Shown: piece by piece, positions 36,390 to 38,200 of the stretch
Numbering within the stretch: the stretch's first letter is position 1
Layout: every line of letters starts with the position of its first letter
Assembly (NCBI GenBank): GCA_902777325.1
Contig: CACYTH010000023.1
Location: 1 to 64,000 of the forward strand
DNA length: 64,000 bases
Origin: an uncultured Coriobacteriaceae bacterium
Lineage (GTDB): Bacteria > Actinomycetota > Coriobacteriia > Coriobacteriales > Atopobiaceae
Direction: 5' to 3'
Notes under the pieces: generated by a model
Told to the model about the DNA's origin: nothing
Database searches by the model: none
What the model saw: the letters and a program-made list of their open reading frames with translations, nothing else
Translations under genes and position numbers: made by a program

Positions 36390-36418
36390 TTGAGACGTGC
36401 ATGGGCGGTGGGTAAAGT
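36390..36418 (+). promoter_or_regulatory. promoter of the Y RNA cluster
   Basis: TTGAGA (36390-36395), a 17-base spacer and TAAAGT (36413-36418) give a good housekeeping promoter. The expected start near 36425 falls directly before the first Y RNA candidate. No comparable promoter lies before the second RNA or rsr. Confidence 0.6.
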
Positions 36419-36424
36419 ATTGCT

Positions 36425-36545
36425 CAAGCGGGATGCGCCGAAGCAATGGGATACTTCGTGACCATTCTTTCATCCTGACTTTCACGGGTCAGGCGGGTGC
36501 CTGCGTCAGCAGCCCTGTAATGAACCCCATTGCGCTCCATGCCGT
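36425..36545 (+). ncRNA. candidate Y RNA 1 (no tRNA-like module)
   Basis: The Ro-binding motif GCCGAAG is at 36437-36443. The strand after it, GCAATGGG (36443-36450), pairs perfectly with CCCATTGC (36526-36533). Outside the motif GGA-T-GC (36431-36436) pairs with GCTCC (36534-36538). The motif thus sits as a bulge between two helices, the Y RNA plan. An internal hairpin CCTGAC/GTCAGG (36474-36493) forms part of the loop domain. It aligns with RNA 2 over GCGCCGAAGC and TACTTC. Ends are approximate. The region shows no credible coding frame. Confidence 0.7.
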
Positions 36546-36564
36546 CCCGCCCTCTCGTACCCTC

Positions 36565-36707
36565 GAGGGTGGCGCGCCGAAGCGGCGGGTTACTTCTTAA
36601 CGTGGTGGCAGCCGGTTCGACTCCGGCAGGGGCAAGCCCCTTAGCTCAACGGTAGAGCGCCATGGGGCCTGCGCCCGTCTCCCGTCGCGCCACATGCCGC
36701 CACCCTC
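36565..36707 (+). ncRNA. candidate Y RNA 2, YrlA-like, with tRNA-like module
   Basis: GCCGAAG is at 36576-36582. GCGGCGGG (36582-36589) pairs with CCCGTCGC (36681-36688), and outside the motif GTGGC (36569-36573) pairs with GCCAC (36689-36693). An alternative longer end pairing is GAGGGTGGCG with CGCCACCCTC (36698-36707). The loop domain is a permuted tRNA-like module (36605-36663). This combination defines bacterial YrlA RNAs, which bind Rsr and can tether it to a nuclease such as PNPase. It lies 27 bases before the rsr start. Confidence 0.85.
36605..36663 (+). other. circularly permuted tRNA-like module
   Basis: In order: GTGGC (36605-36609, anticodon-stem position); T-arm GCCGG-TTCGACT-CCGGC (36611-36627); acceptor 3' strand AGGGGC (36628-36633); a two-base AA link; acceptor 5' strand GCCCCT (36636-36641); TA as positions 8-9; D-arm GCTC-AACGGTA-GAGC (36644-36658); then GCCAT (36659-36663), which pairs back to GTGGC. 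The T-loop (TTCGA) and D-loop (GG) have the tRNA bases needed for elbow contacts. It cannot be a normal tRNA, since the acceptor ends are joined and there is no anticodon loop. Confidence 0.88.
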
Positions 36708-36733
36708 ACGGATGCCAGGTAAGGAGGTATACC

Positions 36734-38200
36734 ATGGCACGTCTCAACCTATCCGCTCGCGGACTCAACAAGACCTACAACATCAGTGGTCATGCGGCCT
36801 ATGCGATGGACGACAAGACCAAGCTGGCAACCATGGCGCTCACCACGCTCTTTGGCGAGGACAAGTTCTACGGCGACAACTCTGCGGAGCTGATCAGCCT
36901 GGCTGCGCGGCTCTGCCAGCGAGGCGATGGCCTCTATGTGGCAAAGCTTGCCGTGTGGGCGCGCACCCAGGGTAACCTCCGCACCGTGAGCCATGTGCTT
37001 GCAGCGGTGGTCGCGCACGAGTGCTCGGGCGAGGGCTTTGTCCGCCCCATGGTTCGCACCATCGCCACCCAGCGTGGCGACGACGGCACGGAGATGCTGG
37101 CTGCGCATGCGGCGCTCTATGGCACCAAGGTCCGCTGGCCCCACGCCCTGCAGCGTGGTGTCCGCGATGCCCTAGAGCAGATGGACGCCTACCAGATCGC
37201 CAAGTACCAGTCGGCGCACCGCGAGTTCAAGATGCGCGACACGCTGCGCATCTGCCACCCGGTGGCGCGCTCCGTCGAGGCTGCCGAGGCCATGGACGCC
37301 TGCGTGGCTCGCACGCTTGCCGTGCCCAAGGGCTGGGAGAGCGAGCTGTCCCAGCGCGGCAACACGGCCGAGGTCTGGAACGAGCTCGTCTCCGAGGGTC
37401 GTCTGGGCTACATGGCGATGCTCCGCAACCTGCGCAACGTCATCGCCTCTGGTGCCGACGTGGCGCCGGTGCTCGGCATGCTGGGCAACCCCTCTGCCGT
37501 GCGTCGTTCCCGTCAGCTGCCCTTCCGCTTCTACAGCGCCTGGCGCGAGCTGAAGGCGGCCGGCCTTCTCACCACGCGCGTCACGCGCGCGCTGGACCAG
37601 GCGCTTGCGCTGTCGTGCGACAACGTCGAGCCGCTGCATGGACGTACGGCCGTGCTGGTGGACACCTCGGGCTCCATGGGCTTCTGCCTGAGCGGACGCT
37701 CCAAGGTCAGCTGCCGCGACACGGCTGCAGTGCTGGCGGCACTGCTTGCCCACATCAGCGACGACGCGTGGGTGTGCCGCTTTGACACCACGGCGTCGCC
37801 GCTTGCCTTCACGGGCACGAGCGTGCTGGCTGACATCGAGTCGGTGCCCGCATCGGGTGGTGGCACCAACATGGCCGCGGGCTTCGATTGCCTCATGGAG
37901 AGCGGCTTTGACGCAGACCGCGTGGTGGTGCTCTCCGACAACGAGGTAAACGGTCACTCGTGGATGACCAAGGACTTCGGATACAAGACGATACAGTCCA
38001 AGCTGGACGAGTATCGTGCGAAGGTTGGCCACGACGTGTGGTGCCACGCGATCGACCTGCAGGGCTACGGCACGCAGCAGTTCATGGGCGCCATGGTCAA
38101 CGTCATGGGCGGCTGGAGCGAGCAGGTGCTGCGCTTTGTGGCGCTGGCGGAGCAGGGCCTTGGCGGCCTGGTGGACGAGGTCGAGTCCCTGGCGCTGTAG
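36734..38200 (+). CDS. rsr: Ro60 orthologue (TROVE + vWA domain)
   Basis: A 488-residue Ro sixty-related protein. The TROVE ring of helical repeats covers residues 10-300 (KLAVWARTQGNLRTVSHVLAA is typical). The vWA domain (305-485) has an intact MIDAS motif D310-T-S-G-S. The protein forms a ring that binds Y RNA outside and misfolded RNA ends in the hole; in bacteria it aids RNA decay and rRNA maturation with exonucleases. The start is ATG 36734 after AAGGAGG. Two Y RNA candidates lie immediately upstream on the same strand. No RtcB or nuclease gene is adjacent. Confidence 0.93.
   Translation: MARLNLSARGLNKTYNISGHAAYAMDDKTKLATMALTTLFGEDKFYGDNSAELISLAARLCQRGDGLYVAKLAVWARTQGNLRTVSHVLAAVVAHECSGEGFVRPMVRTIATQRGDDGTEMLAAHAALYGTKVRWPHALQRGVRDALEQMDAYQIAKYQSAHREFKMRDTLRICHPVARSVEAAEAMDACVARTLAVPKGWESELSQRGNTAEVWNELVSEGRLGYMAMLRNLRNVIASGADVAPVLGMLGNPSAVRRSRQLPFRFYSAWRELKAAGLLTTRVTRALDQALALSCDNVEPLHGRTAVLVDTSGSMGFCLSGRSKVSCRDTAAVLAALLAHISDDAWVCRFDTTASPLAFTGTSVLADIESVPASGGGTNMAAGFDCLMESGFDADRVVVLSDNEVNGHSWMTKDFGYKTIQSKLDEYRAKVGHDVWCHAIDLQGYGTQQFMGAMVNVMGGWSEQVLRFVALAEQGLGGLVDEVESLAL

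Follow-up and report, generated by a model that had tools for sequence, protein, structure and literature searches.

A divergent Ro60 gene with tandem Y RNAs in a Coriobacteriia genome and its probable WYL-controlled link to RtcB and ROOL RNA

We found a gene for a divergent Ro60 protein, preceded by two tandem Y RNAs, in the window, i.e., the whole 64-kb stretch of Coriobacteriia DNA that was analyzed (Table 1). It is highly probable, in our judgment, that this locus is the Ro60/Y RNA part of an inducible RNA-damage response whose genes are scattered over the genome and switched by a WYL-type regulator, with the RNA ROOL probably included. This view draws on the genes themselves, on covarying RNA folds, on an operator and -10 box architecture common to several transcription units, and on the co-occurrence of these units with one WYL gene. 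The Rsr/Y RNA/RtcB repair system as such is already known; what is probably new is its splitting over the chromosome, its likely WYL switch, and its link to ROOL.

Table 1. Features of the Ro60/Y RNA locus in the window and of the regulator gene on another contig (C4) of the window genome (G000)
Feature	Position	Strand or orientation	Basis and remarks
Palindromic operator, 24 bp, ATCGCCTTAAAATCTTGAGGTGAA	36350..36373	+	Consensus ATCACCTCAAAATATTGAGGTGAT; predicted WYL-regulator site
-10 hexamer TAAAGT	36413..36418	+	Promoter alignment; 63 bases from palindrome start
Y RNA 1, short type, without tRNA module	36424..36550	+	Sequence, fold, covariation, motif scan
Y RNA 1 outer helix	36428-36435/36543-36550	+	Sequence
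Y RNA 1 Ro60 motif GCCGAAG	36437-36443	+	Sequence, motif scan
Y RNA 1 upper helix	36444-36450/36526-36532	+	Followed by ATACTTC; hairpins replace tRNA module
Y RNA 2, YrlA-like	36565..36707	+	Sequence, fold, covariation
Y RNA 2 outer helix	36565-36574/36698-36707	+	Sequence
Y RNA 2 interior loop with CGCCGAAG	36575-36582	+	Ro60 motif GCCGAAG at 36576-36582
Y RNA 2 upper helix	36583-36589/36681-36687	+	TTACTTC present; helix encloses permuted tRNA module
Permuted tRNA module of Y RNA 2	36603..36663	+	Rfam RF02553 match, model 23-86 of 114
Ro60/TROVE plus vWA gene, 488 aa	36734..38200	+	ATG at 36734, stop ends at 38200; Pfam domains
WYL-type regulator gene, 392 aa	G000:C4:154054-155226	Divergent from rtcB	WYL assignment by profiles and predicted fold

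The Ro60 protein exceeded the curated Pfam cut-offs for both domains of the family, with 97.8 bits for TROVE (cut-off, 23) and 30.0 bits for vWA_Ro60 (cut-off, 27.7), in agreement with the intact TROVE and vWA gene that an earlier, sequence-only reading of this DNA had proposed. PHROG 850 also matched the protein (130 bits). Its nearest solved structures were the TROVE proteins 9l5y and 9kop, followed by Rsr of Deinococcus radiodurans (2nvo) and vertebrate Ro60. The score against the NCBIfam Rsr equivalog model NF041674 was 29.7 bits, compared with the required 900, and the protein is therefore a divergent Ro60 relative and not an Rsr equivalog. In D. radiodurans, a Y RNA tethers Rsr to PNPase (PMC7790460); our locus resembles that system in having Y RNAs encoded alongside a Ro60 protein, although the Coriobacteriia protein matched 2nvo with only 34.5 bits. 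Ro60 was detected in 13 of 398 Coriobacteriia genomes (1 of the 13 being a marginal match) and in 5 of the 18 genomes of the window's genus, so that the locus is a new instance in a group where such loci are rare.

By sequence, fold, and covariation, the two RNAs upstream of ro60 are tandem Y RNAs, and binding of both by Ro60 is predicted. They have in common an outer helix, an interior loop with CGCCGAAG, an upper helix, and then WTACTTC, and the pattern GCCGNAG-N7-WTACTTC occurs exactly twice in the 64 kb, both times upstream of ro60. For the covariation test, the Y modules of 13 RNAs from relatives were set out in rows of equal length comprising the outer helix, the motif, the upper helix, WTACTTC, the 3' strands, and the linker, one linker base being removed in two rows to hold the columns in register. 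Over 15 base pairs and 195 cells, 97.4% of the pairs were standard, and double changes occurred in 13 of the 15 pairs (43 cells in total); none of these values was attained in 500 shuffles, and the signal was lost when the partner strands were slid against each other. A covarying GCCGAAG interior-loop module adjoining a Ro60 gene, by which we recognize a bacterial Y RNA, is thus present, and the placing of GCCGAAG between two helices, as first read from the letters, is upheld: the pairing is retained in relatives that carry the gene. Besides, the fold of Y RNA 1 had a z of -3.9 (0 of 200 shuffles as stable) and that of Y RNA 2 a z of -3.5 (1 of 200), the minimum free energy structure of the latter including the outer and upper helices. 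The two-helix fold was obtained with a 144-nt stretch of the YrlA-like RNA, whereas a shortened 139-nt stretch, folded without constraint, favored an alternative 5' hairpin by ~2.5 kcal/mol; since the fold depends on the length of the stretch, we relied on the covariation. The sequence-only reading had described one Y RNA here. That RNA (Y RNA 2) is real, and what had been missed is Y RNA 1 together with the promoter, whose predicted start site agrees with the 5' end of Y RNA 1.

Both Y elements lie between this promoter and ro60 on the same strand, an arrangement that would also suit a structured 5' leader acting on ro60 in cis instead of separate small RNAs. We consider this very unlikely, because the conserved part is a module of the Ro60-binding type with closed outer helices and because the Y copies vary in number (1, 2, or 3), in order, and in the presence of the tRNA module while ro60 stays constant; the bacterial Y RNAs of other systems act in trans (PMC7790460).

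Y RNA 2, taken as a separate Y RNA, carries a permuted tRNA module that consists of an opened anticodon-stem helix, a T-arm (GCCGGTTCGACTCCGGC), a joined acceptor helix (AGGGGC-AA-GCCCCT), TA at positions 8 and 9, and a D-arm (GCTC-AACGGTA-GAGC). All pairs are standard in the alignment to the Rfam YrlA model RF02553, which bears out the circularly permuted tRNA body recognized earlier. The check by covariance model that had been suggested for it gave a match of 41.5 bits (E value of 8.5e-8 in a 601-base search), below the gathering score of 69; no match in the window, and none in the 398 Coriobacteriia genomes, reached that score. The RNA is for this reason named YrlA-like only: it shares the T-arm, joined acceptor helix, and D-arm with the YrlA family and differs from it in the lower score and in matching only model positions 23 to 86. 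A score under the cut-off is not specific by itself, because such matches are widespread (253 of the 398 Coriobacteriia genomes; among the controls, 8 of 14) and the 5 top ones inspected were tRNA-Gly/tRNA-Pro pairs. Hence, we rejected a class-wide YrlA scan as a count of Y RNAs, the inspected top sub-cut-off matches outside Ro60 loci being tRNA pairs. The chance that the module at our locus is itself accidental or such a tRNA-pair artifact, as its low Rfam score and the similar scores of tRNA-Gly/tRNA-Pro pairs might suggest, is practically negligible, and this reading is already contradicted: no tRNA gene was called in the window, the module lies within the covarying Y helix in G000 (the window genome), G002, G003, G012, G008, and G327, and YrlA matches stand upstream of both ro60 genes of G038. 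The Y RNA call was decided by the covariation of the Y module and by the restriction of its pattern to the two places in the window upstream of ro60.

The relatives retrieved by name were MAGs of Coriobacteriaceae/Atopobiaceae, including one from sheep gut, and the locus can indeed be regarded, as had been supposed, as a Coriobacteriia example of a YrlA-like Y RNA beside Ro60. Across the ro60 loci compared, we found three arrangements upstream of the gene: a short Y RNA followed by a YrlA-like one (the window genome, G002, G003, G012, and a phage-like contig of G327), a short Y RNA alone (G366, G283, G288, and the Atopobiaceae MAG JAFWMI), and a YrlA-like RNA alone (G008 and both G038 loci). 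The tRNA module therefore appears to be optional on a constant Ro60-binding base, and the tandem pairs of short and tRNA-type Y RNAs offer a naturally occurring contrast between Ro60 particles that have tRNA mimicry and those that lack it. G012 has an additional (third) YrlA-like copy, the fold of which was no better than those of shuffles (z of -1.0); the D-arm of this copy (L010:5067-5214), GTGGCGAAATTGGCAAACGC, resembles that of tRNA-Leu, and the D-arm of the other copies is generic. On the phage-like contig of G327 (L030:10103-11981, G327:C71), which has a DnaB-like gene and a tRNA cluster, the short Y RNA, an IscB-like gene, the YrlA-like RNA, and Ro60 follow one another, and the chromosomal ro60 of the same genome (C58) is an apparent remnant. 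In G003 (L024) and G012 (L010), we also noticed that Y RNA 1 contains, within its 3' strand, a promoter-like sequence, TTGNG-17-TANNNT, from which the YrlA-like RNA may be transcribed separately; the window copy has a 21-base spacer.

The promoter upstream of Y RNA 1 is one of a family of sites. Its palindrome precedes the predicted Y RNA 1 start by ~60 bp and is centered near -63, a usual location for an upstream activator. With the sites from all genomes aligned, a TANNNT -10 box begins 62 to 64 bases after the start of the ATCACCTCAAAATATTGAGGTGAT palindrome in 25 of 27 sites. A search of the window genome with the consensus gave 5 distinct places and a reversed-pattern control gave 0; the places were the Y RNA/ro60 locus, the gap between rtcB and a divergent regulator gene, a position ~90 bp upstream of a ROOL RNA, and two near an open reading frame (ORF) of 760 amino acids. 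Upstream of Y RNA/ro60, rtcB, and ROOL, the operator was found in several genomes, along with a few other targets. The rtcB gene of the window genome (C4:152721-153923) is a 97% match to the G002 gene (Pfam RtcB, 203 bits). Thus, the earlier statement that no RtcB gene is adjacent is true locally and misleading otherwise, because rtcB stands on another contig behind the same operator and promoter; similarly, the sugar-use region in which the locus had been placed is an incidental setting, the linked genes, including the ROOL RNA, being in trans. In the window's MAG, ro60, rtcB with the WYL gene, and ROOL are on three separate contigs. rtcB, the WYL gene, and ROOL occur together on one contig in G012, which answers the worry that the MAG mixes organisms.

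We rejected rtcB as a constant member of the regulon, since the rtcB gene of the g46 species is without the operator; nor does it adjoin the WYL gene. Operator-like sites in G335 and G016:C149 were set aside, as they had no clear -10 box at the right place or no recognizable target. The operator also precedes the 760-amino-acid ORF (L062:7400-9922, G000:C2), for which Pfam, NCBIfam, PHROGs, and PADLOC gave no match, and a transcript with small ORFs on the same contig (L062:9919-10340). Related genes for a probable coiled-coil protein of 177 to 185 amino acids stand behind it as well (L099:7078-7656 in G012:C10 and L217:4164-4721 in G361:C10); in G361, the site is divergent from the WYL gene, and the coiled-coil gene is a possible further regulon member.

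The regulator gene next to rtcB encodes a WYL-domain protein. Its orthologues in G387 and G400 exceeded the Pfam WYL cut-off, while the window-genome protein scored below it (17.1 versus 21.8) and matched the PADLOC WYL model at 9.4e-12. The predicted structure (mean pLDDT, 80.5; pTM, 0.38) had its best matches with DriD and PafBC, followed by CapW and BrxR; global Foldseek TM-scores were low (0.2 to 0.3), which, together with the pTM, means that the fold match rests on domains, as is expected if the domain packing is uncertain. DriD and PafBC respond to DNA damage. The Coriobacteriia protein is similar to them in predicted fold, and the position of its site suggests a similar role as an activator, whereas the genes associated with it handle RNA. 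Close orthologues (E value of ≤1e-70) were present in 17 of the 398 genomes, among them all 5 genomes with ROOL and 9 of the 12 with Ro60. Hypergeometric P values for the co-occurrence, 8e-8 for ROOL and 8e-12 for Ro60, ignore relatedness and are indications only, being too small because the ROOL genomes (5 of 398) are related. Relative to ROOL, the WYL gene is in divergent orientation in G391, immediately upstream in G012, and ~3 kb distant in G242, and it adjoins or lies near ro60 in G366, G283, G288, G400, and G387.

The binding of this protein to the palindrome is a prediction, and distant WYL paralogues are common (154 of the 398 genomes); the palindrome might therefore be real and yet be read by another regulator, or be a repressor site, with the WYL gene as a mere frequent neighbor. 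We judge this unlikely, given that a close WYL orthologue stands beside the operator in rtcB, ro60, and ROOL arrangements alike, that the operator is likewise missing at ro60 in those Ro60 genomes that have no close orthologue (G008, G327, and G038), and that the palindrome precedes the core promoter by a distance resembling that of activator sites. Switching is thus probably exerted by a WYL activator rather than by RtcR. In keeping with this, we did not find rtcB, rsr, and Y RNA together beside an RtcR gene: ro60 and rtcB are on different contigs, and the gene adjoining rtcB is that of the WYL protein.

In Salmonella Typhimurium, a single operon (rsr-yrlBA-rtcBA) unites rsr and two Y RNAs with rtcBA under the sigma-54 activator RtcR, which is activated when tRNA fragments bind its CARF domain (PMC7790460). 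The system predicted here has the same ingredients, i.e., a Ro60 orthologue, a pair of Y RNAs of which one is of the tRNA-like YrlA type, RtcB, and common control. Instead of one RtcR operon, however, ro60/Y RNA and rtcB are apart and appear to be joined by the operator and the WYL-type protein; besides, Y RNA 1 is without a tRNA module, and ROOL comes in addition. The rtcB neighborhoods examined contained no rtcA. Such a common switch would offer a route to the control of RtcB, Y RNA, and Ro60 without RtcR.

ROOL is an octameric RNA nanocage for which "no function has been described," and it is known mostly from phages and prophages (PMC12286853) and also from a lactobacillus megaplasmid (PMC12286853, PMC5643018); deletion of a ROOL-type RNA in Lactobacillus salivarius revealed no definitive function (PMC5643018). 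Among the 398 Coriobacteriia genomes, 5 had ROOL above the cut-off (G000, G012, G242 with 2 copies, G391, and G400 with 2 copies), with full-length matches of 205 to 257 bits. The copy in the window genome (C2:74781-75351) scored 247.4 bits over positions 1 to 574 of RF03087, exceeding the gathering score of 99.1 over the full model. These genomes belong to three genera in two families and contain six ROOL transcription units, all six of which have the operator and the -10 box at the same distance. A position weight matrix built from 15 promoters of Y RNA and rtcB, with no ROOL promoter among them, scored the ROOL sites at 20 to 35 bits, thereby recovering every ROOL promoter; on shuffled sequence, its best score averaged 7.9 and the highest of 100 shuffles was 16.7. 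In G400 (L096:6735-7932, G400:C242), two ROOL RNAs lie in direct tandem, 36 bases apart, behind one operator.

Because ROOL stands behind the same switch as rtcB and Y RNA/ro60, a role in the same response is suggested, and ROOL is probably a component of it alongside Ro60, Y RNA, and RtcB. More specifically, we see about an even chance that ROOL is a stress-induced part of a WYL-controlled RNA damage and repair regulon with these partners, in which it may, for instance, sequester RNAs, damaged tRNAs among them, or sort them. Since phages and prophages are the main known source of ROOL (PMC12286853) and we found matches in ten viral contigs, it could instead be a phage- or plasmid-derived passenger that is induced from a damage-responsive promoter captured from the host and takes no part in RNA repair. 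That explanation deserves attention and seems to us the less likely one, for ROOL is set among ordinary chromosomal genes in the window genome (recQ/ROK kinase) and, with neighbors named by eye, in G012 (ruvABC region) and G400 (endonuclease-IV-like gene), and the operator has been kept in six units of two families across which ROOL identity is 68 to 81%. The phage ROOL loci inspected contained no operator, WYL, RtcB, or Ro60, and a search of viral contigs for Ro60 and WYL proteins found none. Thus, although the Coriobacteriia copies match RF03087 in full length, they differ from the viral loci checked in sitting behind the RtcB/Y RNA operator; the link is therefore claimed for Coriobacteriia only and may fail for ROOL in general. 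The operator link would give ROOL a concrete regulatory and functional context, the first one as far as the open-access literature searched shows.

Taken together, the system might work as follows. The WYL-type protein, which has a DriD/PafBC-like predicted fold and is encoded on another contig beside rtcB, most likely binds the palindrome (CCTCAAAATATTGAGG) and, by analogy with RtcR, would sense a nucleic-acid damage product and activate the scattered promoters; the palindrome center is ~63 bp upstream of the predicted start, and the -10 box stands at a fixed distance. The transcript of the ro60 locus would contain the two Y RNAs and then ro60, and Ro60 would bind both RNAs at their common GCCGAAG two-helix module. 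The tRNA-shaped module of Y RNA 2 may dock the particle to a tRNA-handling partner or serve as a decoy, and Y RNA 1, without this module, would give rise to a second type of particle. Ro60 and Y RNA would then handle structured or broken RNA, to which the YrlA-like RNA would add tRNA mimicry, and RtcB would reseal the breaks, the ligase and, in some species, the cage-forming ROOL being driven by the same switch.

Two further observations concern other genomes. In G387 (L033:3637-9741), Ro60, two RlaP nucleotidyltransferases, a CCA-adding-type enzyme, and the WYL gene lie within 6 kb, in what looks like a fuller RNA-repair cluster. Besides, we encountered a second kind of YrlA-like permuted-tRNA RNA, with the outer helix GGCAGTC/GACAGCC and without the GCCGAAG motif, at L239:3201-4000 (G004:C129, minus strand), L240:897-961 (G283:C1), and L241 (G327:C139:5500-5579). 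In G004, a genome without a Ro60 match, it forms three tandem units with apparent promoters and terminators of their own, and the array ends, as judged by eye, just 5' of the start codon of a gatC-like gene.
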